A DNA stretch of 64,000 bases, from positions 4,194,501 to 4,258,500 of the forward strand of contig NZ_CP022203.1 of assembly GCF_002305895.1 (NCBI RefSeq), written 5' to 3'. Source of the stretch: Corallococcus macrosporus DSM 14697 (GTDB lineage: Bacteria; Myxococcota; Myxococcia; Myxococcales; Myxococcaceae). Under the pieces are notes generated by a model that was given only the letters and a program-made list of their open reading frames with translations, ran no database searches and had not been told where the DNA came from. A program made the translations under genes and the position numbers. Shown here in pieces: positions 47,701 through 64,000 of the stretch; positions within the stretch are counted from its first letter, which is position 1; every line of letters starts with the position of its first letter.

Positions 47701-48226
47701 ACAGCCGCAGCAGCAGCGCGATGAGCGCGCCGCTGAGCATGACGAGCGCCGCCGTGCCGAGCCACACCAGCGTCCGCGCCTCGCCGACCCAACCCGCCAT
47801 GCCGAGGGCGACCAGGAGCGCGAGGATGAGCGCGGTGTAGTTGGTCATCGTCTCCACCACGACGCAGGCCATGACCGGGCCTCGGGCCACGCCGCGCCGC
47901 CCCAGGCCGTTGACGATGAGCGCCGCGCCGCTGACGCCAGCGGAGGGGAGGGCCTGGTCGATGAAGAGCTTGGCGACGCTCATCGCGTAGAGCGCGCCCA
48001 GGGGAACCCGGAAGGGCGTCCTCGCCAGCACGGACCGCCACACGGCCGACTGCGACAGGTACGTGGCCGCCTGGAGCAGCGCGGCGAGCAGCAGCCAGGC
48101 GGGCGCCGAGCGCCTCAGCAGCAGCGCGAACTCCCGCTGCTCCGTCCAGCGGGTGGCGATGAGGATGACGGCCGCCAGCAACGCCAGCCCGAAGCCCCAC
48201 TTGCGCCAATCCCGCCGGAGCGTCAC
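44744..48226 (-). CDS. UPF0104/flippase-like domain fused to MgtA-type P-type ATPase
   Basis: A 1160-residue membrane protein. Residues about 1-315 are the UPF0104 / lysylphosphatidylglycerol-synthase-type membrane region (LPSAGVSGAALIV, PGGLGTFEAASIGLL). From about 325 on is a complete P3B ATPase: actuator LTGES, the MgtA-type membrane motif SPELLP, phosphorylation Asp652 in DKTGTLTEG, hinge GDGVNDAPAM. P3B pumps import Mg2+. The two modules are usually separate proteins. The GTG start overlaps the upstream ATPase stop (GTGA), so it is translationally coupled to it. A lipid-linked or Mg2+ role is inference. Confidence 0.85.
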   Translation of the reverse strand: MTLRRDWRKWGFGLALLAAVILIATRWTEQREFALLLRRSAPAWLLLAALLQAATYLSQSAVWRSVLARTPFRVPLGALYAMSVAKLFIDQALPSAGVSGAALIVNGLGRRGVARGPVMACVVVETMTNYTALILALLVALGMAGWVGEARTLVWLGTAALVMLSGALIALLLRLSRGGAPVQPPRLVARIPGMKTLLQALAEAPASLTHDPRVLTEATGFNFIIHLLDAATLWALLRSLGVDAPPTGVFSAFMLSTLARTLGVIPGGLGTFEAASIGLLNLMGVPLEAALSGTLLFRGYSFYVPLLPGLLLSRGELREQRAAARPPPIEHPWALPAPALREALRTTPQGLSTDEAARRLEQYGTNALEERRPPSHLRVVWLQLRTPLVLLLVFAAVISAFTGSWSDASIILAIVLGSVLLGSSREYKAQVTIARLRERVATTVEVLRDGRTVSVPLADVVPGDVVLLSAGSVVPADARVLEATDLFVSQAMLTGESFPVEKRPGEAAPGAALAGRDNCVFRGTHVRNGTARALVVATGRDTAFGGIARRLTLRAPETEFDRGLRQFGHVLLTTMVVMVLAVVTVNVLLDRPPVETLLFALALAVGLSPELLPAILNVNLSTGSQAMAARGVLVRRLSAIENLGGMDVLCTDKTGTLTEGVVSLHGAHDAAGQPSEDVLALAALNAAFQTGLSNPLDEAILRARRPPPDAAGKLGEIPYDFVRKRLSVIVRRKGEVQLITKGAFTQVVQVCTHVADGAPLDARWKEDLQRRADAWGEQGVRILALATRAIEARERYAREDEHALTFRGFLAFIDRPKEGAREALLELSRLGVGTRLITGDNRRVAEHVARQVGLGTARVLTGAQLHQLTDEALWHQAELTELFVEVDPTQKERIILALKKQGHVVGFLGDGVNDAPAMHAADASICVDHAAVVVGEAADFVLLQRHLDVVRRGIEEGRRTFANTLKYILTTTSANLGNMMSMAAASLFLPFLPLLPGQILLNNFLSDIPAVGLAGDSVDPELVDRPRRWDMRLIGRFMVAFGLLSSCFDLLTFGVLLGLFQAGPALFRTGWFIESLLTELLIALVVRTRRPFLRSRPGTLLLVSTAAVTVFTFLVPWLPFAGALGFVRPPVTLLVAVAVITVLYVVAAERAKGPFFRGQD

Positions 48227-50937
48227 CCGCGTCCCTCCCGTGCGGCCGGGGCATCACGGGCGGAGGGCCGCCGCAGCAGCTTGTGCAGCTCCATGGCCAC
48301 GATGATGGACGCGGCCACCAGGACGATTCGCAGCCACGAGCCTCCGTCCGTCAGCGGCACCACCCTCAACACGAACTGCGTGGGGGCGAAGTAGAGGGCG
48401 CCCACGTGGACGGCGAGCGCCGCGGCCGTGGCCCAGAACAGGAAGGGATTGGAGAACGGGCTGCGTGCGAACACCGACTGCGTCTCCGAGCGGGCATTGC
48501 CCACCTGGAACATCTGGAAGAGCACCATCGTCGTGAGCGCCGCCGTCCGCGCGTCCGGGAGCGAGTCCGTCCTGGCCAGCTCCCAGTGGAACACCCCCAG
48601 CGTCCCCGCGGCCATGACGACCCCGGCGACCACCGTGCGCTCCCACAGCAGCCCCGAGAGGAACCCCTCTCGCCTCGGGCGCGGTGCTCGCGCCATCACC
48701 CCGGGGTCCGCGGGCTCGAAGGCCAGCGCCACGTCCTGGAGCCCGTTCGTCACCAGGTTGAGCCACAGGAGCTGCGCGGGCAGCAGCGGCAGCGGCCACC
48801 CGAGCGTCAGCGCGGAGAGGAGCGTGATGACGGCCGCCGCCCCCGTGCTCACCAGGAAGAACGTCACCTTGCGCAGGTTGTCGAACGTGACGCGCCCTTC
48901 CTCCACCGCCGCGGCGATGCTCACGAAGTTGTCGTCCGCCAGCACCATGTCGGAGGCCTCGCGCGCCACGTCCGTCCCGCCTCGGCCCATGGCCACGCCA
49001 ATGTCCGCCGCCTTGAGCGCTGGCGCGTCATTCACGCCGTCGCCCGTCACCGCCACCACCTCGCCCCCGGCCTGGAGCGCGCGCACCACCCGCAGCTTCT
49101 GCTCTGGCGTCACCCGCGCGTAGAGGTCCACCTCCAGCGCCCGCCCGAGGAGCGCCGCGTCGTCCAGCGCCGCCAGCTCGGTCCCCGTCAGCGCCGCGCC
49201 GTCGCTCGTCAGCCCCAGCTCCCGGCCGATGGCGCGCGCCGTCGCCACGTGGTCGCCGGTCACCATCACCACCCGGATGCCCGCGTCCTGGCAGCGCGCG
49301 ATGGCCTCGCGCACGCCCTCCCGGGGTGGGTCCATCATCCCCGTCAGCCCCAGGAAGGTGAGGCCCTCGGGGCCCTCTACCGCGTCAGGCCGCGCGGGGG
49401 CCTCCTCCAGCGGGCGGTAGGCCATGGCCAGCATCCGGAGGCCCCGGCCCGCCAGCGCCGCCGCCGCGGCGTGCGCGGCCTCCGCGTCGAGCGGCTCCAG
49501 CCCCGCCTCGCCGAGCTGCGCGGTGCTCATGGCCAGCACCCGCTCCGGCGCCCCCTTCAGGAAGAGGGCGCGGCGCCCGTCGCGGCTCCGGAGGCTCGCG
49601 GAGTATTGCCGCTCGGGCTCGAAGGGAATCTCCGCGTCGGAGGTCCAGTGGCCTCTGAGGGCCTCGTGCGCCAGCCCCAGCCGCTCCCCCGCCAGCAGCA
49701 GCGCCGCCTCGGTCGGGTCCCCGCGCGTCACCTGGCCGCGCTCCGTCTGGAACACGTCGGCCTCGTTCGCGAGCACGCCCGTCAGGAGCAGCAGGTACAG
49801 GGGAGGGTGCTCGGCCAGGTCCTGCGCGCCCTCGACGGGGCGGGCCCTCGGGTCTTCCAGCAGGGCCTCGTTCGAAAGCGAGAAGAAGCGGCCCCCGGCC
49901 CACAGCTCCTGCACCGTCATCCGGTTCTCCGTCAGCGTGCCCGTCTTGTCCGAGCCGATGACGGTGGTGCTGCCCAGCGTCTCGATGGCCGGCAGCCTGC
50001 GGATGACGGCCCTCCGCCGCGCCATGCGCGCCACGCCCAGCGCCAGGGTGATGGTGAGCACCACGGGCAGCCCCTCGGGCACCGCGGCGACCGCCAGCGC
50101 CACCGCGAGCATGAACATGTCGGAGGTGGATTCGCCCCGCACCACGCCGATGAGGAAGCCCAGCGCCGAGCTCCCTCCCACCACCAGCCCCACCACCCGC
50201 GCGAAGCGGCGCATCCGCTCCTGCAGCGGCGTGGCGGCGGCGGCCTCACCGCGGATGCTGCCGGCGATCTCCCCCAGCTCGGTGCGCGCCCCGGTGGCCA
50301 CGACATAGCCGCGTCCCCGCCCGCTGGACACCACCGTGCCCGTGTAGGCCATGTCTTCCCGGTCCGGCAGCGGCGCGTCCTCGGCCACGGCGCCCGCCTG
50401 CTTGTGCACGGAGGCGGACTCGCCGGTGAGCAGCGACTCGTCGACGGTCAGCGTCGTGGCGGCCACCAGCCGGAGGTCCGCCGGCACCCGCGTGCCCGAC
50501 TCCAGCAGCACCAGGTCTCCGGGCACCAGCTCCCGGCTCTCCACCTCCCACTCGTGCCCGTCGCGGATGACGCGCGTCCTGGGCGACACCAGCCGCGTCA
50601 ACGCCCGCACGGAGACCTCGGCCCGACGCTCCTGGGTAAAGCCGATGGCCGCGTTGATGACGAGGATCGCGGCGATGGCCCCCGCGTCGATGGTCTTTCC
50701 AAGCAAGAGCGTCACCGCGAAGGCGGCCAACAGGATGTAGATGAGCGGGCTCTTGAATTGGTGGAGCAGCCGCGCCAGGGCGCTGGTGGGTGGGGCTTCC
50801 GCGAGCTGATTGGGGCCGTACCGCGCCAGCCGGCTCTTCGCGGTGGCCTGCCGCAGCCCGAGCGCCCCGGTGTCGAGCCTGGACGCGACTTCTTCCACGA
50901 GCAGGGCATGCCAGGGCCGCGCGTGTTCTTGCTCCAT
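48223..50937 (-). CDS. P2A-type cation-transporting ATPase (Ca2+-like)
   Basis: A 904-residue P-type ATPase. Key blocks: N-terminal cation-ATPase domain, actuator LTGES, membrane motif VPEGLPVVLT (PEGL as in SERCA/PMR1-type pumps), phosphorylation Asp330 in DKTGTLTEN, KGAPE in the nucleotide domain, GDGVNDAPAL, and a C-terminal six-helix cation-ATPase domain. It should extrude Ca2+ or Mn2+. ATG 50937 has GGAGGAAAG upstream. It lies 125 nt after the TVP38-like gene and is coupled to the fused Mg-type ATPase. Confidence 0.9.
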   Translation of the reverse strand: MEQEHARPWHALLVEEVASRLDTGALGLRQATAKSRLARYGPNQLAEAPPTSALARLLHQFKSPLIYILLAAFAVTLLLGKTIDAGAIAAILVINAAIGFTQERRAEVSVRALTRLVSPRTRVIRDGHEWEVESRELVPGDLVLLESGTRVPADLRLVAATTLTVDESLLTGESASVHKQAGAVAEDAPLPDREDMAYTGTVVSSGRGRGYVVATGARTELGEIAGSIRGEAAAATPLQERMRRFARVVGLVVGGSSALGFLIGVVRGESTSDMFMLAVALAVAAVPEGLPVVLTITLALGVARMARRRAVIRRLPAIETLGSTTVIGSDKTGTLTENRMTVQELWAGGRFFSLSNEALLEDPRARPVEGAQDLAEHPPLYLLLLTGVLANEADVFQTERGQVTRGDPTEAALLLAGERLGLAHEALRGHWTSDAEIPFEPERQYSASLRSRDGRRALFLKGAPERVLAMSTAQLGEAGLEPLDAEAAHAAAAALAGRGLRMLAMAYRPLEEAPARPDAVEGPEGLTFLGLTGMMDPPREGVREAIARCQDAGIRVVMVTGDHVATARAIGRELGLTSDGAALTGTELAALDDAALLGRALEVDLYARVTPEQKLRVVRALQAGGEVVAVTGDGVNDAPALKAADIGVAMGRGGTDVAREASDMVLADDNFVSIAAAVEEGRVTFDNLRKVTFFLVSTGAAAVITLLSALTLGWPLPLLPAQLLWLNLVTNGLQDVALAFEPADPGVMARAPRPRREGFLSGLLWERTVVAGVVMAAGTLGVFHWELARTDSLPDARTAALTTMVLFQMFQVGNARSETQSVFARSPFSNPFLFWATAAALAVHVGALYFAPTQFVLRVVPLTDGGSWLRIVLVAASIIVAMELHKLLRRPSARDAPAAREGRG

Positions 50938-51062
50938 GGTGCTTTCCTCCAGGTGCGTGGCGAGCGTCCCGTCGTCCGGCGCCCATGGCGCGTGGCCCTC
51001 GGGGAAGGATGCGGCCCGCCAGCGGCAAGAGGCACGCCACGAGGAGCCCTGCACCTGCCGGG

Positions 51063-51752
51063 CTAGGCGCCGAGTCGCTTGCGCAGCAGGTGGAGGGCCC
51101 ACACGCCGAAGACAATGCCGGCCACGCCCAGGCCGAGCAGCACGGCGGTGCGCTGCTCGAGGAAGCTGGCCCCCAGGTAGACGGTGCCCACCGCGTAGGG
51201 CAGCTCCGCCACGGCGAGCACGAGCAGGTAGCGGCGCAGCCCATAGCGCGCCAGCCCGAGCACGTAGCCAGGGATCTCCGAGGGGACGGCGAGCTGGAAG
51301 AGCAGGACGAGGCCGAAGGAGCTGTGCCGGGAGAGGCGCGCCTCGTAGCGGGCGAGCATGCGGCCGGAGGTGAGCCGGCGGACGACGGGGCGGCCCCATG
51401 CGCGGGCGATGCCATAGGCGCAGGCGCCCCCCACCATCCAGCCCACCCAGAGCAGGAGCGCGCTGAGCGCCTGGCCCCAGGCGTGGATCGCCACCGGCAG
51501 CAGCAGCGCGCTGGAGAAGAAGGCCAGCATGGCCGACACGGCGGAGAGGAGGACGAAGAGCGCCGCGCCCCGGACGGGGTGCTCGGCGATGATGGGCGCC
51601 GCGGCGTCCAGGACGCGGTGGAGGAGGGCCTGGAACGCGTCCGACGAGGCGAGGAGCGCGAGGCCGCCGAGCAGCAGCACCAGGGGGAGCACCTGGAGCC
51701 ACGGGGAGGGGAGCCCGCGGCGCGCGTCCTTTGGCAGGGAAGAGGTACCCAT
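51063..51752 (-). CDS. TVP38/DedA-like membrane protein (VTT domain)
   Basis: A 229-residue protein with about 5-6 membrane segments. The core reads ALLLPVAIHAWGQ ... VGGACAYGIARAWGR ... FQLAVPSEIPGYVLGLARYGLRRYL, the VTT/SNARE-associated pattern with the conserved Gly-rich and Pro-containing re-entrant loops. Relatives scramble or flip lipids and affect membrane homeostasis. It is the first gene of the three-gene run with the two ATPases, fitting a membrane/ion homeostasis operon. Confidence 0.85.
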   Translation of the reverse strand: MGTSSLPKDARRGLPSPWLQVLPLVLLLGGLALLASSDAFQALLHRVLDAAAPIIAEHPVRGAALFVLLSAVSAMLAFFSSALLLPVAIHAWGQALSALLLWVGWMVGGACAYGIARAWGRPVVRRLTSGRMLARYEARLSRHSSFGLVLLFQLAVPSEIPGYVLGLARYGLRRYLLVLAVAELPYAVGTVYLGASFLEQRTAVLLGLGVAGIVFGVWALHLLRKRLGA

Positions 51753-52024: not shown

Positions 52025-55000
52025 TCAGTCAGCGGGAGGCGTGTCGGCGTGCGCCAGGATGTCGGTCAGCGCACTGGCGAGTGCCTCGACTCCGGGGGCT
52101 CGCAGGACGCTGTAGTGATCGCCCTCGACGACTCGGACGGAAAGCCGCGCCGCGTGACGGCCCCAGCCGCGATCCTCCGGCGCGGAGGACTCCAGCTCCG
52201 TGTGGCTGCCTCGCAGGACGGTGAGGGCTCCTGGGAACGTGCCTGGCGTGTGCTGCTGGAGCGCCCGGAGGTTGCTGGTGAAGACGCGAAGGAGCGCGTG
52301 GACGTGTTCCAGGCCCGCGCCTGGGATGAGCGCACCCGCCTCGCGGCCTTCCCGAAGCACACGCTCCAGGAGCGCCGTCGCGTCCAGCTCCGCATCCTCC
52401 GGGAGCGCCGACGGGGCGATTCCCGCGGTGCGAGCCAGGTCGAGCGCGAACATCGTCGCCGCGGCCAGGTCGTCGCTGGTCGCGCTGCCTCGGGCCTGCG
52501 AGGTGGCGCTGGGCTCAATCAGCGCCAGGACGTCGACCGTCTCACCCATTCGCTGGAGCAGGCGCGCCATCTCGAAGGCGATGACGGCTCCGAGAGACCA
52601 GCCTCCCAACCGATAGGGCCCTTGAGGCTGCACGGCGCGGATGGCCGCCACGTAGCTGGCCGCCATGGATTCAATGGACCCGTTCGGAGGCAGCGTCCCT
52701 TCGAGCCCTTGCGCCTGCAGCCCGTAGAAGGGCTGTTCGGGGCCCAGCCGCCGCGCCAACTCGACGTAGCAGAACACCGTGCCTCCCACCGGGTGGACGC
52801 AGAAGAAGGGCACCCGTGAGCCACCGCGCTGGATGGGGACGAGCGGCGTCCATGCGGCGGGCTCTCGCCGCAGGAACGCGGCCAGGCCCTCGACGGTCGG
52901 CGCCTGGAGGAGCGCCGTCACAGGCAGGTCGCGGCCCGTGCGGGAGCGCAGCATGGAGACGAGCCGCACGGCGAGCAGCGAATGGCCGCCAAGCTCGAAG
53001 AAGTCGCCCGTGACGCCGATGGGCGAGACTCCCAGGAGCTCCTCGAAGAGCTGCGCCACCTCCAGCTCGAGGGCATCGCGCGGTGGAAGGTAGGCCACCT
53101 GCCGCGTCGCGCTGTCTTCGGGAGCCGGCAGGGCCTTCCTGTCCACCTTGCCACTCGTGTTCAGAGGCAGCGCGCCCAGCGAGACGTAGGCCGAGGGCAC
53201 CATGTGCTCGGGCAGCCGCTCCTTGAGGAATGGGCGGAGCGCGTTGCCGTCCACCTCCTTGGAGGACTCCGCTTCCATGACGACGTACGCCACCAGGCGC
53301 TGCGACCCGGTGGTGTCCTCGCGGACCAGGACGACGGTGTCGCGCACCGAGGGGTGCTGGCGCAGCGCGGACTCAATCTCCCCCAGCTCGATGCGGAAGC
53401 CGCGCAGCTTCACCTGGAAGTCGGTGCGGCCCAGGAACTCGAGCTCGCCCTGAGGCAGCCAGCGTGCCCGGTCTCCCGTCCGGTAGAGGCGAGCCCCCGG
53501 CGCGGTGCTGAAGGGATTGGGGATGAAGCGCTCCGCGGTGAGCTCGGGGCGGTTCAGGTAGCCCCGCGCGAGGCCCGCTCCACCAATGTAGAGCTCTCCT
53601 GGAACACCGACCGGCACGGGCTGGAGGTACGCGTCCAGCACGTAGGTCCGCGCGTTCGCCAGCGGGCCGCCCAGCGAGGGCGGCAGCGGCGCTCCCCGCA
53701 CGGCGCGCAGGGTGGAGTCCACCGTGCATTCGGTGGGGCCGTAGACGTTGAAGCACTCGATGTTCGGATGGGCGGAGAGCCGGGCCCAGAGCGCGTCGTC
53801 CAACGCTTCACCGCCAGCCAGCACGCGCAAGGGGCGGCGGGCCGCGAGGCCCTCGTCCAGGAGCACGCGAAGCAGCGACGGAGCGCAGTCCAGCACATCC
53901 ACCTCATGCCGCTCCAACCAGGCCAACATCACGCGCGCATCCTCGCGAGCGCCCTGGGGCACCACGCACAGCGCGTGTCCGTCCGCGAGCTGCACGAGTT
54001 GCTGCACGGACGCGTCAAAGGAGAGGGACGCGTTGAGGCTGACGCGGAGGGGCCTGTCCACGCTCGCGTAGGCTGTGGCCGCCAGCGCCGCGCGCAGGTT
54101 CATCACCGAGGCATGCTGCACCATGACGCCCTTGGGCTTGCCGGTGCTGCCCGAGGTGTAGATGACGTAAGCGAGGTGTTCGGGCTGGCTGCGCCGCGGC
54201 GGGTTCGATGCGCCTCGTGAATCACTCATGTCCCCTGCGTCCTCCACGCAGAGGGTTTCCACCTCGTGCCCGGCGAGCTTGACTGCGATGCGGCGCTGCG
54301 TGAGCAACCAGCGCACCTGCGAGTCGCCCACCATGTAGGCCAGACGCTGGGCAGGGTAGGCCGGGTCCATGGGCACGTAGGCGCCGCCCGCCTTGAGGAT
54401 GGCGAGGATGGAGACAACCGTATCCACCGAGCGCTCCATGCACAGGCCCACGCGAGCCTCGGGGCCCACGCCGCGGGCGCGCAGGGCCCAGGCGAGCAGG
54501 TTGGCTCGGCGGTTCAGTTCCGCATAGCTGAGCGAGCGCTCCTCATCGAGCACCGCGAGCGCGTCGGGGGTGAGCGTCGCCCGGTCCTCGAAGCGCTCGT
54601 GCAAGCAGCCTTCCCAGGCGACCTCCCGGCGCGTGTCGTTCCAGGCTGCGAGCACCGTGGCGCGTTCGGCCTCAGGCAGCAGCGCGGCCTGCTCGTAGCG
54701 GCCACGTGGCGCTGCTGTCACTGCCTCCAGCGCACGCAGGTAGTAGTGCCCCAGTTGCCGCGTCTGCTCCGCTTCGTGCCGCGTGCCCGTCGTGGCAATG
54801 GAGACAGACAGCGAAGAGGTGTCCGGGTCTTGCGTAAAGGTGACGCCGAGCGGCAGCTCCATCCAGGCGGCGCCGAGCATCTCGTCGACGAAGCGCAGGC
54901 CCTTCTGTTGGGAAAGTCCTCCGGCGACGTGGAAGTGGATGAAGTTGAAGAGCGTGTCGAACAGAGGCTGGCCGCCGCGCTTCTGCTGGAGCCGCGCCAT

Positions 55001-58000
55001 GGGGAAGCGGCGGTGCGGTATCAGCTCCTGCTCATGCTTCGCGACCTGCTGAATGAGCTCCAGCCAGGAGCCGCCGTGCAGCGTGAGGGGGAAGGGGACG
55101 CTGTTGAGGAAGAGGCCAATCATCCGCTCGCCGTCGACGACTTCCGGGCGGCCGTTGGTGACGATGCCAGTGACGACGGAGGTGTTCCCTTCAACGAAGG
55201 CCCGGACGCGCAGGTGGACGGCGAGGAGGACTGTCTTGAGGGACACGCCGGCCTCATGGGCCACGCGGAGCAGCGCCTGCTGGAGGGACGCGGGGATTTG
55301 CACGCCGTGGGTGTGCAAGACGCGCTCTTCGTCCCGGGCCCGGTGCGGACGCGGACTCGCCGCGTCCACGCCCTCCATGCGGTCGAGCCAGTAGCGCTCA
55401 CTCTCCGTGGAGCGCTGCGCCGCGCGTTCCAACGCGATGAACTGCCGGTAGGACGCAGCCAGCGATGGCGGAGGAGCTGCGTGGCGGTCCTCCATCAGTT
55501 CGAGGTAGCGGCCGAAGAGCTCGGAGAACAGGGTCGCGGCGCTCCAGCCATCCAGGATGGCGTGGTGGAAGACGATGGTCAGTTGAAGGCCGCGGGCCGT
55601 GCGGCGGTGCACCGCGATACGGAGCAGGGGCGCCTGGGTCCACTCGAAGGGCTTGAGGCGCTCCGCTTCCACCCACTCACGGAGGAAGGCGTCTTGCTGG
55701 GAGGGCTCCAGGTGACGGAGGTCCTCGATACGGAGCGGCGGCGCGACCTCCCGGTGAACGAGCTGGAGTGGCTCGTCATAGCCGTCCAGGTGGAAGGAGG
55801 TGCGCAGGAGGGGGTGGCGCGCCATCAGCTCCTGGAGGGCCTGCCGTAGCCGCGGCTCGTGCAGCTCCAGCTCCAGGTGGAAGCTGAACATGTCGTGGTA
55901 GATGCCGGCCGAGGCATCCAGGGCGCTCTCGAAGAGCATGCCCGACTGGAGCGCGGCCAGTGGGTAGGCATCCTCCACGTCCGCGGGCAGCCGCTCGCGG
56001 TCCGCATCGGACAGGAGGCCGAAGGGCGCCACGTCCTGCGCGGAGGCGGGCCCTCCGGTGTGCTTCACCACAGCCGAGAGCTGGCGAATGGTGGGGTGCT
56101 GGAGCAGCTCCAGGATGGGCAACTCCAGGCCCCGTTCACGCAGCTTCGCGATGATCTGGATGCTGCGGATGGAGTCGCCGCCCAGCTCGAAGAAGCTGTC
56201 GTCGATACCCACCTGGCTGAGCCCCAGCACTTCGGCCCAGATGTCGGCGATGGCCTGCTCGGAGGCGTCGCGGGGGGCTTCGAAGGCTTCGCCCGTCCGT
56301 GCCCGCTCCGCGTCGGGAGCGGGCAGGGCCTTGCGGTCCACCTTGCCGTTCGGAGACAGCGGCAGGGCCTCCATGGGGATGACGAAGGCGGGGACCAGGT
56401 ACTCAGGCAGCTTGCGCAGGATGTGGTCTCTCAGGGCCCGCGGATCCACGGAGTCCACGCCATCTTCGCCCACCACGTAGGCGACGAGGCGCTTGTCGCC
56501 CGGGGAGTCCTCGCGAGCGAGGACGACGGCCTCCAGGACGCCGGGGGCCTGCTGGAGGGCGGCTTCGATTTCGCCCAGCTCGATGCGGAAGCCACGCACC
56601 TTCACCTGGAAGTCGGAGCGGCCGAGGAACTCCAACGAGCCGTCGGGCTTCCAGCGGACGCGGTCGCCGGTGCGGTAGAGGCGAGCGCCAGGGGAGGAGG
56701 AGAAGGGGTGTGGGAGGAACTTCTCAGCCGTCAACTCAGGGCGGTGGAGGTAGCCCCAGGCGAGGCCGTCACCGCCGACGAAGAGCTCGCCCGGGACGCC
56801 GACGGGGACGGGCTCCAGGCGGGAGTCGAGGACGAAGGCGGAGGAGTGGGCGAGCGGCTTGCCAATGGGGACGGAGGTGGCGAAGGCGTCTCCGGCACGA
56901 AGGGGATGCGTGGCGGAGAAGGTGGTGTTCTCGGTGGGCCCGTAGCCGTTGACGAGGAGGGCGCCGAGAGGAATGTGCTCCAGGTGCTGCCGGACACGAA
57001 GCGGGGACAGCACGTCGCCTCCCGCCAGCACCTGCCGGACGCTGGCGAGGGCTGGGCCTTGGTGAAGCACCATCTGCTCGAAGAGCGCGGCGGTGAGCCA
57101 GAGGGTGGAGACGCGGTGGTGAGTCAGCAGCGCGGCGAGTTCGTCGAGGGAGGGCGTGTGAGGCGGAGCGAGGACGAGGCGAGCGCCGTGAAGCAGGGCG
57201 CCCCAGAGTTCCAGGGTGGAGGCGTCGAAGGCGACGGGAGCGAGCTGGAGGAAGACTTCGTCGGGGCCGAAGTGGATGAAGGGGTTGGAGAGGACGAGGC
57301 GAGCGACGGCGCGGTGAGGGATGCAGACGCCCTTGGGCCTGCCGGTGCTGCCGGAGGTGAACATGACGTAGGCGAGGTCATCGCCGCACATGTCCACGGA
57401 AGGAGGGGCGTCATGGGGCAAGGCCGTGATGAGGTCCGCGTCCGCGTCCACGCAGACCATCAAGCCTCCAGCGATTGGCAGCTCGTCCGCGATTGACTCT
57501 TGCGTCACGAAGACGCTGACGCCTGCCTCCTGAAGCAGCAGCGAGATGCGCTCTGTGGGGTAGTGGTGGTCGATGGGGACGTAGGCGCCGCCGGCCTTGA
57601 GGATGGCGAGCAGCCCCACCACCAGCTCCGGCGAGCGCTCCAGGCACAGGCCCACTCGAGTGCCCCGGGTGACGCCGTAAGCGCGCAGATGGCGCGCGAG
57701 CTGGTTCGCGCGGCGCTCCAGCTCCGCGTAGCTGACGACCCGCTCACCGCTGACGAGCGCCACGGCCTCCGGTGTGCGTGCTGCTTGCGCGGAGAACAAC
57801 GCGTGAATCGGCGTCTCACGCGGGAACGTCGTGGACGTCGCGTTCCAGTCGACCAGGAGCTGCTGCCGCTCCTCGGCGCGTAGCAACGGCAGCTCCGCCA
57901 GACGCTGGTCCGCATTCGCGACGACGGATTCCAGCAGCGTGCGGAAGTGCCCCATCATCCGCTCGGCCGTGGCGGCGTCGAACAGGTCGGTGTTGTAGTT

Positions 58001-61000
58001 CAGCGCGCCGGAGAACCCCTTCGGGGACTCTTCCAGCAAGAGGCTCAGGTCGAATTTGACGGTCTCCAGCTCGGTCTCGAGGACTTGCAACGACAGCCCC
58101 GGCAACTCCAGGCGCACGGGAGGCGTGTTCTGCAGGGTGAAGGTGACCTGGAAGAGCGGGGAGCGGCTCGGGTCTCTCGCGGGTTGCAGTACGTCGACCA
58201 GCTTTTCGAAGGGCACGTCCTGGTGCTCGAAGGCGCCCAACGTTGACACCTTTACCTGCGCCAACAGCTCGCGGAAGGTGAGCTCCGGCGACATCCGGGC
58301 ACGGAAGACCAGCGTGTTGACGAAGAAGCCGATGAGCCCTTCCAGCTCAGGCCGGGTGCGGCCGGCAATCGGCGAGCCGACGGAGATGTCCTGCTGACCA
58401 GAGTACCGTGAGAGCAGCACCTGCCATGTGGCCAGCAGCACCATGAACGGCGTGGCCTCGTGGCGGCGCGCCACCGTGGTGACCGCCTCGGAGAGCGCCG
58501 CGGGCAGGCTCACCGGGAGGAGCGCTCCACGATAGGTCTGCACCGCCGGGCGCGGCCTGTCCGTGGGCAACTCCAGCGCCGCGGGCGCGCCGGCGAGCTG
58601 TTCGCGCCAGTAGCCCAGCCGTGACTCCAGCACCGGCCCCTGCATCCACTCTCGCTGCCAGAGGGCGTAGTCGGCGTACTGGACCGGCAGCGACGGGAAG
58701 TGGGGAGCACGGCCCTGAACGGCGGCCTCATAGCCCTCCGCCACTTCGCGCACCAGCACGCCCACCGACCAGCCGTCGGACACGATGTGGTGCATCGTCA
58801 CCAGCAGGACGTGCCGGTCCGCGGCCAGCCGCAGCAGGCGGGCCCGGAAGAGCGGGCCTCGTACCAGATTGAAGGGAACGTGCGCCTCCTCGTTCGCGAG
58901 CTGCAGCGCCCGGGCGTCACGCTCGCCTTCAGGCTCGGTGGAGAGGTCCGTGATGGGCAACTCCAGGGGGAAATGCGGGTGCACCACCTGGACAGGCTGG
59001 TCACCCTCGTTCCGGAACGTCGTGCGCAGTGCCTCGTGCCGCTGCACCACCCGCCGCAGGGCTTGCTCCATCGCGTGAGCGTCGAGCGCCCCGTCGATGG
59101 CCACTGCCGCGGGATTGTTGTACGTCGCGGTGTCGGGCGTCAGTTGCTCCATCACCCACAGTCGCTGTTGAACGAAGGACTGGGGCAGTGGCCTCTCGCG
59201 TGGCGCGGCACGGAGGGGCGGCAGGGTACCCGCGGTGCCACGGGCCCGTTCAACATCCAGACGCGCGGCCAGCGCCTCCACCGTGCTCTGTTCGAAGAGC
59301 GCGCGGAGTGGCAGGTCGACTTCGAATTCTTGTCGCAGCCGTGCCACCAACTGCGTGGCCAGGAGTGAGTGGCCTCCAAGCGCGAAGAAGTCGTCCTCCG
59401 CGTTGACCGTTTCGACATGGAGCAGCGTGGCCCAGTGAGCGGCGACACGACGCTCTGTGTCCGTGCGGAGCGGTCGCGTTGCGGCGTGCCGAGGGGCTTC
59501 CGGTGCCGGGAGGGCCTTGCGGTCCAGCTTGCCGTTGGGGGTGAGTGGCAGGGCCTCCAGCGTGACGAAGGCCGAGGGCACCATGTGCTCGGGGAGCCGC
59601 TCCTTGAGGAACGGACGGAACGTGCTGCCGTCCACGGAGGTGGTGGCCTCCGCTTCCGTCACCACGTACGCCACCAGGCGTTGCAGCCCTGGCGTGTCTT
59701 CGCGTACCAGGACCACGGTGTCGCGCACCGTGGGGTGTTGGCGCAGCGCGGACTCAATCTCTCCCAGCTCAATGCGGAAGCCACGCAGCTTCACCTGGAA
59801 GTCGATGCGGCCCAGGAACTCGAGTTCGCCCTGAGGCAGCCACCGCGCCCGGTCTCCCGTCCGGTAGAGCCGAGCACCCGGAACCGTGCTGAACGGATCG
59901 GGGATGAACCGCTCGGCGGTGAGCTCGGGACGATTCAGGTAACCGCGCGCCAGTCCCGCTCCACCAATGTAGAGCTCTCCCTGCACTCCGACCGGCACAG
60001 GCTGCAGGAACGCGTCCAGCACGTAGGTTCGTGCGTTCGCCAATGGCCCGCCCAGGGACGGCGGCAGCGGTGCTCCGCGGACGGTGCGCACCGTGGAGTC
60101 CACGGTGCACTCCGTGGGACCGTAGACATTGAAGCACTCGATATTGGGATGGGCGGAGAGCCGGGCCCAGAGCGCCGCGTCCAGCGCTTCACCGCCAGCC
60201 AGGACGCGCAAGGGGCGGTGGGCAGCGAGCCCCTCGTCCAGAAGCAGCCGCAGTTGGGAGGGGGCGCAGTCCAGCACGTCCACCTCGTGGCGCTCCAACC
60301 ACGCCATCATCTGGCGGGTGTCCTCACGAGTGGCCTGGGACACCACGCACAGCGCATGCCCGTCCGCGAGCTGCACCAACTGCTGCACAGATGCGTCAAA
60401 TGACAAGGACGCGTTGAGGCTGACCCGCAGGGGTCGGTCCACGCCCGCGTAAGCGGTGGCTGCCAGCGCCGCGCGCAGGTTCATCATCGAACCGTGCTGC
60501 ACCATGACGCCCTTGGGCTTGCCCGTGCTACCGGAGGTGTAGATGACGTACGCGAGGTGTCCGGGCTCGCTGAGCCTCGGCGGGTTCAATGCGCCTCGTG
60601 AATCACTCATGTCCCCTGCGTCATCCACGCAGAGGATTTCCACCTCGTGCCCGGTGAGCTTGTCCGCGATGCGGCGCTGCGTGAGCACCCAGCCCACCTG
60701 CGAGTCGCCCACCATGTACGCCAGGCGCTGGGCGGGGTAGGCCGGGTCCATGGGCACGTAGGCGCCGCCGGCCTTGAGGATGGCGAGGATGGCGACCACT
60801 GAGTCCACAGAGCGCTCCATGCACAGGCCCACACGAACCTCGGGGCCCACACCTCGGGCACGGAGGGCCCATGCGAGCTGGTTGGCGCGGCGGTTCAGCT
60901 CCGCATAGGTGAGCGCGTGCTCATCATCGATCGCCGCGAGCGCGTCAGGGGTGAGCTCCGCTCGGTCCTCGAACCGCTCATGCAAGCAGCCGTCCCAGGC

Positions 61001-64000
61001 GACCTCCCGGCGCGTGGCATTCCACGTCTCCAGCAGCGTGGTTCGTTGGACCTCTGGCAGCAGCGCTGCCCGCTCGTATCGGCCTTGTGGCTCCGATGCC
61101 ACTGCCTCCAATGCGCGCAGGTAGTAGTGCCCCAGCTCTTGTGACCGCTCTGCTTCGTGCCGAGTGCCCGTGGTGGCAATGGAGACCGACAGCGCCGAGC
61201 TGTACGGGTCTTGCGTGAAGGTGACGCCCAGCGGCAGCTCCATCCAGGCGGCGCCCAGCATCTCGTCGACGAAGCGCAGGCCCTTCTGTTGGGACAGTCC
61301 GCCCGCGATATGGAAGTGGATGAAGTTGAAGAGCGTGTCGAACAGGGGCTGCCCACCGCGCTTGTGCTGCAGCCGCGCCATGGGATAGCGGCGGTGCGGC
61401 ATCAACTCCTGCTCATGCTTCGCGACCTGTTGGATGAGTTCCAGCCAGGTGCCCCCGCGCAGTGTCACCGGGAATGGGACGCTGTTGAGGAACAGGCCGA
61501 TCATCCGCTCGCCGTCGATGACTTCCGGCCGGCCGTTGGTGACGATGCCTGTGACGACGGAGGAACTCCCTTCGACGAAGCCTCGGACGCGCAGGTGCAC
61601 GGCCAGCAGCACCGTCTTGAGGGACACGCCGGCCTCGTGGGCCACGCGTAGCAAGGCCTGCTGGAGGGCGGCGGGGATTCGTACCTCGTGGGTGTGTAGG
61701 ACGCGCTCATCGTCGCGGGCCCGCTTCGGGCGAGGGCTCGCGGAGTCCACGCCCTCCATTCGGTTGAGCCAGTAACGCTCGCTCTCGGGGGAGTTCTGCG
61801 CGTCGCGCTCCAATGCCACGAACTGCCGGTAGCTGGCGGCTGGGGATGGCGCGGCGGGTGCCGTACTGCCTTCCAGCAACTGGAGGTAGCGGCCAAAGAG
61901 CTCCGAGAGCAGGGTCGCGGCGCTCCAGCCATCCAGGATGGCGTGGTGGAAGACGATGGTCAGTTGGGCGGTGGTCTCCGACCGGCGGTGCACGCAAAGC
62001 CGCATCAGCGGGGCCTTGTTCCAGGTGAAGGGCTGGATGCGCTCCTTCTCCGCCCATGCCTGCAAGTAGGCCGTTTGCTGGGCGGTCTCCAGGTGTCGGA
62101 GGTCTTCGAACCTCAGCGGCAGTGCAACGTCTCGGTGGACCCACTGGAGGGGCTCTTCGAAGCCCTCCAGGTGGAACGACGTGCGTAGGATGGCGTGGCG
62201 CGCGAACAGCTCCCGGAAAGACTGGTGCAACAGCGACTCATTCAGCGCCATCTCCACGTGGAAGCTGAACATGTCGTGATAGATGCCGGCCGAGGCATCC
62301 AGGGCACTCTCGAACAGCATGCCTGACTGGAGCGCGGCCAGCGGATAGGCGTCCTCCACGTCCGACGGCAGTCGCTGGCGGTCGGTCTCGGACACGAGGC
62401 TGAAGGGCTCGACCTGGAGCGAGGAGGGCTTGCCAGTCGCCTTGACGACACCCGCGAGCTCGCGAATAGTCGGGTGCTGGAGCAACTCCAGCGTGGGCAG
62501 TTCCAGGCCGCGTTCACGCAGCTTCGCGATGACCTGGATGCTGCGGATGGAGTCTCCGCCCAACTCGAAGAAGCTGTCGTCGATGCCGACCTGTCGGAGG
62601 CCCAGGACCTCCGCCCAGATGTCGGCCAGGGTCTGCTCGGAGGCGTTCCGAGGCCCTTCGAAGGGCGTGCCGGCCCGGGCCAGGTTCACGTCGGGAGCGG
62701 GCAGGGCTTTACGGTCCACCTTGCCGTTCGGGGACAGCGGTAGGGCGTCCAGCGGCATGAAGACCGCGGGCAGCATGTACTCGGGCAGGCGTGTCTTGAG
62801 GTACGTGCGGATGGCGCTCAGGACGTTCGCGCTCTGTTCGGCCGAAAGCGCTGGTGCGCTCGGGACGACGTAGGCGACGAGGCGCTTGTCGCCCGGCGCA
62901 TCCTCGCGGGCGAGGACGACGGCTTCCTGGACACCTGGAGCTTGCTGGAGGACGGCTTCGATTTCGCCCAGCTCAATGCGGAAGCCGCGCACCTTCACCT
63001 GGAAGTCGGAGCGGCCGAGGAACTCCAGCGTGCCGTCGGGCTTCCAGCGGACGCGGTCGCCGGTGCGGTAGAGGCGAGCACCGGGGGCGGAGGAGAAGGG
63101 GTGAGGGAGGAACTTCTCAGCTGTCAACTCGGGGCGGTGGAGGTAGCCCCAGGCAAGGCCGTCACCGCCGACGAAGAGCTCGCCCGGGACGCCGACGGGG
63201 ACAGGCTCCAGGCGGGAGTCGAGGACGAAGGCGGAGGAGTGGCCCAGCGGCTTGCCAATGGGGACGGAGGTGCCGAAAGCCTCACCGGCGCGGAGGGTGT
63301 GGGTGGCAGAAAAGGTGGTGTTCTCGGTGGGCCCGTAGCCGTTGACGAGGATGGCACCGGAAGGAATGCGCTCCAGGTGCTGACGGACACGCAGCGGGGG
63401 CAACACGTCACCACCTGCCAGCACCTGCCTGACACCAGCCAGGGCAGTGCCTTGGTGAATCACCATCTGCTCGAAGAGAGCGGCGGTGAGCCAGAGGGTG
63501 GAGACGCGGTGGTGCGTCAGCAGTGCGGCGAGTTCATCCAGAGAAGGTGAGTGAGGCGGAGCGAGGACGAGGCGAGCGCCGTGAAGCAGGGCGCCCCAGA
63601 GCTCCAGGGTGGAGGCGTCGAAGGCGACGGGAGCGAGCTGGAGGAAGACTTCGTCAGGGCCGAAGTGGATGAAGGGATTGGCGAGGACGAGGCGAGCGAC
63701 GGCGCGGTGAGGGATGCAGACGCCCTTAGGCCTGCCGGTGCTGCCGGAGGTGAACATGACGTAGGCGAGGTCATCGCTGCCCACGTCCACGGAAGGAGGT
63801 GCGTCCCCCGGCAGGTCCGCGATGAGGTCCGCGTCCGTATCCACGCAGACTCGCTTGCTGTCTGAATCAGGGAGCCCTTCGGCCAGCGGCTGTGCCGTGA
63901 CAAGCACGCCGATGTCAGCCTCCTGAAGGAGCAGCGAGATGCGCTCCGCGGGGTAGTGGTGGTCGATGGGGACGTAGGCGCCGCCGGCCTTGAGGATGGC
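52025..64000 (-). CDS. Non-ribosomal peptide synthetase, C-terminal part (5' end off right edge)
   Basis: 3991 residues are visible and the frame is open to the edge. Order: A1 (about 62700-64000, incomplete), T1 (LGGDS, ~62550), C2 (~62400-61060), A2 (~61000-59500), T2 (LGGHS, ~59370), C3 (~59200-57870, HHIVSDGWS), A3 (~57830-56330), T3 (~56180), C4 (~56000-54670), A4 (~54630-53120), T4 (~52985), thioesterase (~52830-52040, nucleophile GWSLGA, His in VEGDHYSVL). C2 and C4 open YPLAALQSGMLFE and have HHAILDGWS; C3 opens SFVQQRLWVM as in LCL domains. No epimerase or methyltransferase domain is seen. Ten-residue pocket codes by alignment to GrsA: A2 and A4 DAQDLGVVDK (the known Gln code), A1 and A3 DALWLGGTFK (close to Val DAFWIGGTFK). 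Product unknown; the visible modules alternate Val-like and Gln. Confidence 0.95.
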   Translation of the reverse strand, partial: AILKAGGAYVPIDHHYPAERISLLLQEADIGVLVTAQPLAEGLPDSDSKRVCVDTDADLIADLPGDAPPSVDVGSDDLAYVMFTSGSTGRPKGVCIPHRAVARLVLANPFIHFGPDEVFLQLAPVAFDASTLELWGALLHGARLVLAPPHSPSLDELAALLTHHRVSTLWLTAALFEQMVIHQGTALAGVRQVLAGGDVLPPLRVRQHLERIPSGAILVNGYGPTENTTFSATHTLRAGEAFGTSVPIGKPLGHSSAFVLDSRLEPVPVGVPGELFVGGDGLAWGYLHRPELTAEKFLPHPFSSAPGARLYRTGDRVRWKPDGTLEFLGRSDFQVKVRGFRIELGEIEAVLQQAPGVQEAVVLAREDAPGDKRLVAYVVPSAPALSAEQSANVLSAIRTYLKTRLPEYMLPAVFMPLDALPLSPNGKVDRKALPAPDVNLARAGTPFEGPRNASEQTLADIWAEVLGLRQVGIDDSFFELGGDSIRSIQVIAKLRERGLELPTLELLQHPTIRELAGVVKATGKPSSLQVEPFSLVSETDRQRLPSDVEDAYPLAALQSGMLFESALDASAGIYHDMFSFHVEMALNESLLHQSFRELFARHAILRTSFHLEGFEEPLQWVHRDVALPLRFEDLRHLETAQQTAYLQAWAEKERIQPFTWNKAPLMRLCVHRRSETTAQLTIVFHHAILDGWSAATLLSELFGRYLQLLEGSTAPAAPSPAASYRQFVALERDAQNSPESERYWLNRMEGVDSASPRPKRARDDERVLHTHEVRIPAALQQALLRVAHEAGVSLKTVLLAVHLRVRGFVEGSSSVVTGIVTNGRPEVIDGERMIGLFLNSVPFPVTLRGGTWLELIQQVAKHEQELMPHRRYPMARLQHKRGGQPLFDTLFNFIHFHIAGGLSQQKGLRFVDEMLGAAWMELPLGVTFTQDPYSSALSVSIATTGTRHEAERSQELGHYYLRALEAVASEPQGRYERAALLPEVQRTTLLETWNATRREVAWDGCLHERFEDRAELTPDALAAIDDEHALTYAELNRRANQLAWALRARGVGPEVRVGLCMERSVDSVVAILAILKAGGAYVPMDPAYPAQRLAYMVGDSQVGWVLTQRRIADKLTGHEVEILCVDDAGDMSDSRGALNPPRLSEPGHLAYVIYTSGSTGKPKGVMVQHGSMMNLRAALAATAYAGVDRPLRVSLNASLSFDASVQQLVQLADGHALCVVSQATREDTRQMMAWLERHEVDVLDCAPSQLRLLLDEGLAAHRPLRVLAGGEALDAALWARLSAHPNIECFNVYGPTECTVDSTVRTVRGAPLPPSLGGPLANARTYVLDAFLQPVPVGVQGELYIGGAGLARGYLNRPELTAERFIPDPFSTVPGARLYRTGDRARWLPQGELEFLGRIDFQVKLRGFRIELGEIESALRQHPTVRDTVVLVREDTPGLQRLVAYVVTEAEATTSVDGSTFRPFLKERLPEHMVPSAFVTLEALPLTPNGKLDRKALPAPEAPRHAATRPLRTDTERRVAAHWATLLHVETVNAEDDFFALGGHSLLATQLVARLRQEFEVDLPLRALFEQSTVEALAARLDVERARGTAGTLPPLRAAPRERPLPQSFVQQRLWVMEQLTPDTATYNNPAAVAIDGALDAHAMEQALRRVVQRHEALRTTFRNEGDQPVQVVHPHFPLELPITDLSTEPEGERDARALQLANEEAHVPFNLVRGPLFRARLLRLAADRHVLLVTMHHIVSDGWSVGVLVREVAEGYEAAVQGRAPHFPSLPVQYADYALWQREWMQGPVLESRLGYWREQLAGAPAALELPTDRPRPAVQTYRGALLPVSLPAALSEAVTTVARRHEATPFMVLLATWQVLLSRYSGQQDISVGSPIAGRTRPELEGLIGFFVNTLVFRARMSPELTFRELLAQVKVSTLGAFEHQDVPFEKLVDVLQPARDPSRSPLFQVTFTLQNTPPVRLELPGLSLQVLETELETVKFDLSLLLEESPKGFSGALNYNTDLFDAATAERMMGHFRTLLESVVANADQRLAELPLLRAEERQQLLVDWNATSTTFPRETPIHALFSAQAARTPEAVALVSGERVVSYAELERRANQLARHLRAYGVTRGTRVGLCLERSPELVVGLLAILKAGGAYVPIDHHYPTERISLLLQEAGVSVFVTQESIADELPIAGGLMVCVDADADLITALPHDAPPSVDMCGDDLAYVMFTSGSTGRPKGVCIPHRAVARLVLSNPFIHFGPDEVFLQLAPVAFDASTLELWGALLHGARLVLAPPHTPSLDELAALLTHHRVSTLWLTAALFEQMVLHQGPALASVRQVLAGGDVLSPLRVRQHLEHIPLGALLVNGYGPTENTTFSATHPLRAGDAFATSVPIGKPLAHSSAFVLDSRLEPVPVGVPGELFVGGDGLAWGYLHRPELTAEKFLPHPFSSSPGARLYRTGDRVRWKPDGSLEFLGRSDFQVKVRGFRIELGEIEAALQQAPGVLEAVVLAREDSPGDKRLVAYVVGEDGVDSVDPRALRDHILRKLPEYLVPAFVIPMEALPLSPNGKVDRKALPAPDAERARTGEAFEAPRDASEQAIADIWAEVLGLSQVGIDDSFFELGGDSIRSIQIIAKLRERGLELPILELLQHPTIRQLSAVVKHTGGPASAQDVAPFGLLSDADRERLPADVEDAYPLAALQSGMLFESALDASAGIYHDMFSFHLELELHEPRLRQALQELMARHPLLRTSFHLDGYDEPLQLVHREVAPPLRIEDLRHLEPSQQDAFLREWVEAERLKPFEWTQAPLLRIAVHRRTARGLQLTIVFHHAILDGWSAATLFSELFGRYLELMEDRHAAPPPSLAASYRQFIALERAAQRSTESERYWLDRMEGVDAASPRPHRARDEERVLHTHGVQIPASLQQALLRVAHEAGVSLKTVLLAVHLRVRAFVEGNTSVVTGIVTNGRPEVVDGERMIGLFLNSVPFPLTLHGGSWLELIQQVAKHEQELIPHRRFPMARLQQKRGGQPLFDTLFNFIHFHVAGGLSQQKGLRFVDEMLGAAWMELPLGVTFTQDPDTSSLSVSIATTGTRHEAEQTRQLGHYYLRALEAVTAAPRGRYEQAALLPEAERATVLAAWNDTRREVAWEGCLHERFEDRATLTPDALAVLDEERSLSYAELNRRANLLAWALRARGVGPEARVGLCMERSVDTVVSILAILKAGGAYVPMDPAYPAQRLAYMVGDSQVRWLLTQRRIAVKLAGHEVETLCVEDAGDMSDSRGASNPPRRSQPEHLAYVIYTSGSTGKPKGVMVQHASVMNLRAALAATAYASVDRPLRVSLNASLSFDASVQQLVQLADGHALCVVPQGAREDARVMLAWLERHEVDVLDCAPSLLRVLLDEGLAARRPLRVLAGGEALDDALWARLSAHPNIECFNVYGPTECTVDSTLRAVRGAPLPPSLGGPLANARTYVLDAYLQPVPVGVPGELYIGGAGLARGYLNRPELTAERFIPNPFSTAPGARLYRTGDRARWLPQGELEFLGRTDFQVKLRGFRIELGEIESALRQHPSVRDTVVLVREDTTGSQRLVAYVVMEAESSKEVDGNALRPFLKERLPEHMVPSAYVSLGALPLNTSGKVDRKALPAPEDSATRQVAYLPPRDALELEVAQLFEELLGVSPIGVTGDFFELGGHSLLAVRLVSMLRSRTGRDLPVTALLQAPTVEGLAAFLRREPAAWTPLVPIQRGGSRVPFFCVHPVGGTVFCYVELARRLGPEQPFYGLQAQGLEGTLPPNGSIESMAASYVAAIRAVQPQGPYRLGGWSLGAVIAFEMARLLQRMGETVDVLALIEPSATSQARGSATSDDLAAATMFALDLARTAGIAPSALPEDAELDATALLERVLREGREAGALIPGAGLEHVHALLRVFTSNLRALQQHTPGTFPGALTVLRGSHTELESSAPEDRGWGRHAARLSVRVVEGDHYSVLRAPGVEALASALTDILAHADTPPAD
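53105..57607 (-). repeat. NRPS tandem copy 2 (A3-T3-C4-A4)
   Basis: Second copy of the block above. T2-C3 between the copies and T4-TE after this copy are not part of the repeat. Confidence 0.8.
59490..64000 (-). repeat. NRPS tandem copy 1 (A1-T1-C2-A2)
   Basis: Nearly the same block recurs at about 53105-57607, offset ~6.39 kb (for example GCGAGATGCG at 63934 versus 57541). Edges are approximate. Confidence 0.8.

Follow-up and report, generated by a model that had tools for sequence, protein, structure and literature searches.

A predicted Val-Gln cassette, copied and homogenised, in the putative terminal NRPS of an orphan hybrid PKS-NRPS line of Corallococcus macrosporus DSM 14697

The right-hand end of the 64,000-nucleotide stretch of DNA analysed here (the window; genome positions 4194501-4258500 of the single 8,973,512-bp contig of the predatory soil bacterium Corallococcus (M.) macrosporus DSM 14697) carries an NRPS gene whose two halves are near copies of each other, and one may ask how this doubling came about, what has kept the halves alike and which product such an assembly line would release. 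The gene lies on the - strand, as do the domains and copies within it that are described below; it occupies window 52025..64000 and a further 1,725 bp past the right edge of the window, its start ATG being at L031:14225 (window-equivalent 65725, genome 4260225) and its end at window 52025, and this one frame encodes a protein of 4,566 aa. An earlier note, made from the part inside the window, had described alternating Val-like and Gln modules that arose by duplication and end in a TE, and had proposed that the gene be completed to the right. Once completed, the gene displays four modules in the order C-A-T-C-A-T-C-A-T-C-A-T-TE, that is, 4x(C-A-T)-TE; alternation, duplication and release by a TE all stand, the alternation is complete and the peptide part of the product can therefore now be set at exactly four residues. 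Pfam identifies 4 Condensation, 4 AMP-binding, 4 PP-binding and 1 Thioesterase domain, and these repeated C, A and T modules followed by a terminal TE characterise a type I modular NRPS. The upstream PKS modules, the dehydrating-type C domains that link Val to Gln (through which Val may become dehydrovaline) and the gene conversion between the halves, all discussed below, were not part of that earlier description.

The residues predicted for this line follow from the pocket codes of its four A domains. Re-extracted from the alignment, these codes are the ones given in the earlier note, and they repeat twice as it had stated: DALWLGGTFK in A1 (62696..64000, continuing to window-equivalent 64210) and again in A3 (56318..57817), DAQDLGVVDK in A2 (59504..60994) and again in A4 (53123..54613). 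The Val-like code DALWLGGTFK departs from the commonest Val code, DALWIGGTFK (PMC12283262), by one conservative change, Leu for Ile, and probably denotes a plain Val pocket, since a neighbouring NRPS of 11,939 aa uses the same code in six modules, all of which have GGHSL carriers and ordinary C domains. DAQDLGVVDK is the code of Gln-activating A domains; reports link it to Glu as well as to Gln, and it does not separate them (PMC12283262), so that the Val-like half of the original assignment is retained and its Gln half has to be widened to Gln or Glu. The neighbouring NRPS belongs to a second, far longer line situated to the right of the window (genome 4294428-4360553, + strand, loci L145-L148), which starts with a FAAL; its 11,939-aa gene comprises eleven modules, most of them with DALWLGGTFK, and a TE at the end.

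The two copies share 85% DNA identity over 4.49 kb (window 53105-57607 against the other copy) and are spaced by 2,131 codons or 6,393 bp, which agrees with the ~6.39 kb first estimated. Other NRPS matches of at least 1 kb in this NRPS-rich 9-Mb genome, where the background amounts to about 74 C-domain hits, reach at most 69% identity (shorter ones reach higher); the pair thus stands far outside the background. Along the gene, similarity sets in within the last ~35 aa of a C domain and ceases where the second A domain ends (aa 455-2075 against aa 2586-4202), and the duplicated unit is therefore A-T-C-A. The repeat is slightly longer than the block delimited before: copy 1 (end of C1-A1-T1-C2-A2) runs from 59501 to about 64363, and copy 2 (end of C3-A3-T3-C4-A4) covers 53120..57970.

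An identity as high as 85% over 4.5 kb might mean that the tandem duplication is very recent or that the copies are an artefact of assembly, the latter having been named at the outset as an outcome that would undo the claim, and the draft assemblies of relatives do break at this place: the contigs of G023 (a strain labelled M. xanthus AM003) and G007 end in the repeat and G019 has an N gap. This explanation is nevertheless highly improbable. The M. macrosporus DSM 14697 genome (CP022203) was obtained as one PacBio contig at 83x (PMC5629066), the copies are only 85% alike, their fourfold sites are only about 57-77% identical depending on the domain, and the same doubled gene, with 87% aa identity and the same four codes, is present in G001 (Myxococcus sp. 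CA023) and G006, where it carries a block-wise signal of old duplication; the copies are therefore no artefact of assembly. The three-module version in G019 was considered as a natural loss of the cassette and rejected, as an X run (assembly gap) lies at its A3/A4 junction. That each lineage duplicated the cassette separately is likewise improbable, if less remote: parts of the copies do resemble each other more within a genome than they resemble their counterparts in another, as separate events would have it, yet two blocks of the gene (aa 950-1050 and aa 1150-1250) display the pattern of an old duplication at 65 sites to 3.

One duplication followed by gene conversion, the reading preferred here, emerges from the distribution of informative sites between this genome and G001, in which concerted sites are those where the copies are alike within a genome and old-duplication sites those where copies are alike between genomes. 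There are 165 sites of the concerted kind and 157 of the old-duplication kind, with 20 in a third pattern that represents noise. Their order along the gene is far from random, with 57 runs vs 162 expected and 124 in the lowest of 10,000 shuffles. Concerted blocks (approximate limits, counts given as concerted:old) are found at aa 650-950 (36:1), aa 1350-1550 (20:0) and aa 1550-1750 (29:5), and old-duplication blocks at aa 950-1050 (1:31) and aa 1150-1250 (2:34). In terms of domains, homogenisation has reached the core of A1/A3 and the C-lobe of the DHC, but not the C-terminal part of the A domain with the T domain, nor the DHC N-lobe. The first concerted block holds all nine variable pocket positions of A1/A3, and at fourfold sites A1 and A3 are more alike within this genome (identity 0.77) than either is to its orthologue (about 0.68). 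Paralogues that are closer than orthologues in contiguous tracts are the mark of concerted evolution; the near identity of the copies is thus partly due to later gene conversion and not to duplication alone. Read from the sequences, the juxtaposition of sharp concerted and old-duplication blocks argues for one duplication before the split of these species, with gene conversion having later overwritten blocks that include the A1/A3 pocket region.

Which of the two copies came first is suggested by more distant relatives in which the cassette is single. One Val-GGDS(I/M)-DHC-Gln-like cassette, within genes of four to seven modules, is found in G011, G026, G018 and G024, which belong to the genus of the window genome, and in G079 (Archangium lansinium); the doubled cassette is found in the present genome, G001 and G006. 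C3 (57863..59206), an ordinary LCL-like C domain with the motif HHIVSDGWS, is closest, in all relatives, to the C domain in front of the Val module (67-79%), and the terminal T4-TE is closest to their last T-TE, two matches that place copy 2 (by sequence relationship) at the ancestral position and make copy 1 the added one. That the doubling is derived, and was not lost elsewhere, is the parsimonious reading, the outgroup not being firmly placed in the cassette tree. In contrast to C3 and T4-TE, C1 (window-equivalent 64256-65605, outside the window) has no specific relation to any relative's C domain in the domain comparison among relatives. Simple tandem insertion of a second cassette was checked against these relationships, and the unmatched C1 points to a remodelling of the upstream half of the NRPS. 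The motif of C1 is HHSVTDQWS in the doubled-cassette genes, departing from HHxxxDG by Gly to Gln; in G011 and G026 it reads HHSISDGWS. In the proposed history, a single A-T-C-A cassette (Val-T-DHC-Gln) would have been copied upstream in the ancestor of the M. macrosporus/M. xanthus group, and conversion between the copies, the A1/A3 pocket core included, would have kept the halves alike.

At the Val->Gln junctions, the C domains C2 (61040..62365) and C4 (54659..55984) look like the dehydrating DHC/CmodAA type, an assignment made by similarity. Among all solved structures, McyA C2 (381 bits) and AmbE C2 (235 bits) score highest with C2, others reaching at most 162, and the same two score 371 and 206 bits with C4, others reaching at most 153; with C1, ordinary C domains rank first. 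A dual C/E or DCL type, suggested for C2/C4 by their YPLxxLQxGM start, was set aside on account of the far higher McyA/AmbE scores. Both domains have an intact HHxxxDG (HHAILDGWS), and the GGDSI carrier type is confined to the T domains that precede them, T1 (62429..62653) and T3 (56051..56275), GGHSL being found in T2 (59243..59470) and in T4 (52856..53083), which precedes the TE; the pairing of a GGDSI/M carrier with a DHC-type C domain also holds in the relatives. In comparison, the dehydrating C domains of the AmbE, AlbB and LgnD type belong to the CmodAA clade and combine a normal HHxxxDG with an upstream GGDSx carrier, GGDSI-type carriers occur before DHC/E/DCL domains, and myxovalargin has C domains of the CmodAA cluster behind its dehydrovalines (PMC10880069). 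C2 and C4 thus have HHxxxDG and the upstream GGDSx carrier in common with McyA C2, AmbE C2, AlbB C2/C3 and LgnD C2 (PMC10880069).

Domains of this type behind GGDSI carriers make dehydration of the Val-like residue by C2/C4 the natural reading, to which about even odds are given, and ΔVal-Gln pairs are possible on the strength of these motifs. Known DHC domains that act on Ser/Thr need no extra hydroxylase, whereas the donor here is Val-like and the dehydrating activity putative. Dehydration of Val requires its beta-hydroxylation, and in the neighbourhoods of relatives no beta-hydroxylase conserved near all cassette-bearing clusters was seen, so that the dehydration step is one that we infer. 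A Cupin_8/JmjC protein encoded among the PKS genes of the cluster, at genome 4278899-4279765, is a candidate for the Val hydroxylase and not evidence for it, because its close homologues are in place in the doubled-cassette Myxococcus group alone; G011, G018, G024 and G026 have weaker homologues elsewhere only, and G079 has a 57% homologue 0.7 Mb off. The same assembly line could operate with C2/C4 as ordinary condensation domains and give a product with saturated Val, a serious contender to which we grant somewhat less than an even chance. It accords with the search for a hydroxylase conserved with the cassette, which found none, with the resemblance of DALWLGGTFK to an ordinary Val pocket and with the behaviour of LgnD-C2, which catalyses condensation without dehydration, indicating that a DHC may work as an ordinary C domain (PMC10880069); it sits uneasily with the consistent pairing of GGDSI/M carrier and DHC-type C domain in the window gene and its homologues, and with C2/C4 being far nearer to the McyA/AmbE domains than to ordinary C domains. 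A further point against the proposed reading is that, judged by eye on the alignment, C2 shows no obvious conservation of the charged residues described around the active site of AmbE.

Directly upstream of the NRPS, on the same strand and 57 bp away, lies a PKS of 1,541 aa with the organisation KS-AT-KR-ACP; such a same-strand PKS module ending in ACP before C1 defines a hybrid PKS-NRPS, and homologues of this PKS adjoin the NRPS in G001, G006, G011, G026, G079, G018 and G024. Divergent from it are genes for a KS-AT-KR-ACP and a KS-AT-ACP protein. Judged from this gene order, the NRPS is predicted to be the last part of a PKS-NRPS line. In G011, G079, G018 and G024 the PKS genes stand together with genes for a FAAL-T-C-A-T protein, which starts the line in these relatives, and for a GT28-type glycosyltransferase; the FAAL-T-C-A-T of G079 (L040:6174-12683, - strand), the one scanned, has a luciferase-like monooxygenase (MOX) inserted in its A domain. 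In the M. macrosporus group the corresponding place lacks the FAAL-T-C-A-T and GT28 genes, and the PKS pair is followed by genes for FemAB-like, GST, lantibiotic dehydratase N-terminus, Cupin_8, type II TE and GT4 proteins and by two more PKS. Among the PKS genes, at genome 4275082-4277388 (L032/L033 junction), a 768-aa protein with the lantibiotic dehydratase N-terminal domain (PF04738) adjoins one of two ~500-aa paralogues that have no Pfam match; a PEARL-like step is possible for it. The genes scanned beyond the NRPS stop codon, to its left, show no synteny with the cluster of any relative, and this stop codon is therefore probably the left border of the cluster. Outside the cluster, at window 44744-51702, two long - strand frames of 1,160 and 1,159 aa lie next to each other; by eye both look like P-type cation ATPases, and the first seems to be fused to a further membrane domain. 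One cluster of this kind is contained in records L052 and L066 (BNCN01), titled 'Comamonas sp. KCTC 72670'; the matching genome, G024, falls in the genus of the window genome and the record is probably mislabelled.

We conclude with moderate confidence that the NRPS encoded by this gene is the last enzyme of a hybrid PKS-NRPS line that is still an orphan, in which a Val-Gln-Val-Gln chain is assembled by a cassette that was copied and homogenised. In the order of PKS modules that we infer, the upstream KS-AT-KR-ACP would pass a beta-hydroxyacyl chain to C1, after which modules 1 and 3 would load Val and modules 2 and 4 Gln (or Glu). If the carrier-bound Val were beta-hydroxylated, C2/C4 would convert it to dehydrovaline before the coupling of Gln. 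The TE (52028..52825, aa 4301-4566, motif GWSLGA; PF00975, 117 bits) would then free acyl-Val-Gln-Val-Gln, the predicted release giving an acid or a ring. The product is likely a polyketide-capped (dehydro)Val-Gln-(dehydro)Val-Gln peptide; a described product of the cluster was not found in open papers on the pocket codes or on myxobacterial Val/Gln or dehydrovaline lipopeptides, most subscription literature lying outside this search.

The cluster is built of known kinds of elements, namely a hybrid PKS-NRPS line, DHC domains and duplicated modules that evolve in concert. A close parallel, the myxovalargin NRPS (mxv), is also myxobacterial and has Val-derived dehydro residues followed by C domains of the DHC cluster (PMC10880069; PMC9853869). 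The mxv line contains E domains, incorporates beta-Tyr and uses a C domain for release with agmatine, and it has no type-1 TE (PMC9853869); unlike it, the present NRPS has four modules, an upstream PKS, TE release, Gln and no E domain. As for the doubling, homogenisation of duplicated NRPS/PKS modules by internal recombination is a general model (Medema 2014, PMC4256081; Booth 2022, PMC9205934), compared with which the conversion tracts described here are traced within a single gene down to blocks smaller than a domain.

The present gene is a clean natural case of an A-T-C-A cassette copied whole and held alike by gene conversion, and the copying of an intact A-T-C-A bears on which NRPS exchange-unit boundaries work. 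If the proposed reading is right, it offers a testable target of defined mass and residues in an orphan pathway. The strain can be cultured, and homologues exist in others that carry the labels Myxococcus xanthus and Archangium lansinium. It is suggested, more tentatively, that these genes may represent a new myxobacterial polyketide-peptide family founded on a (Val to dehydrovaline)-Gln cassette, with four-, six- and seven-module variants, in which the A-T-DHC-A unit would here have been copied and homogenised to give two dehydrovalines alternating with Gln.
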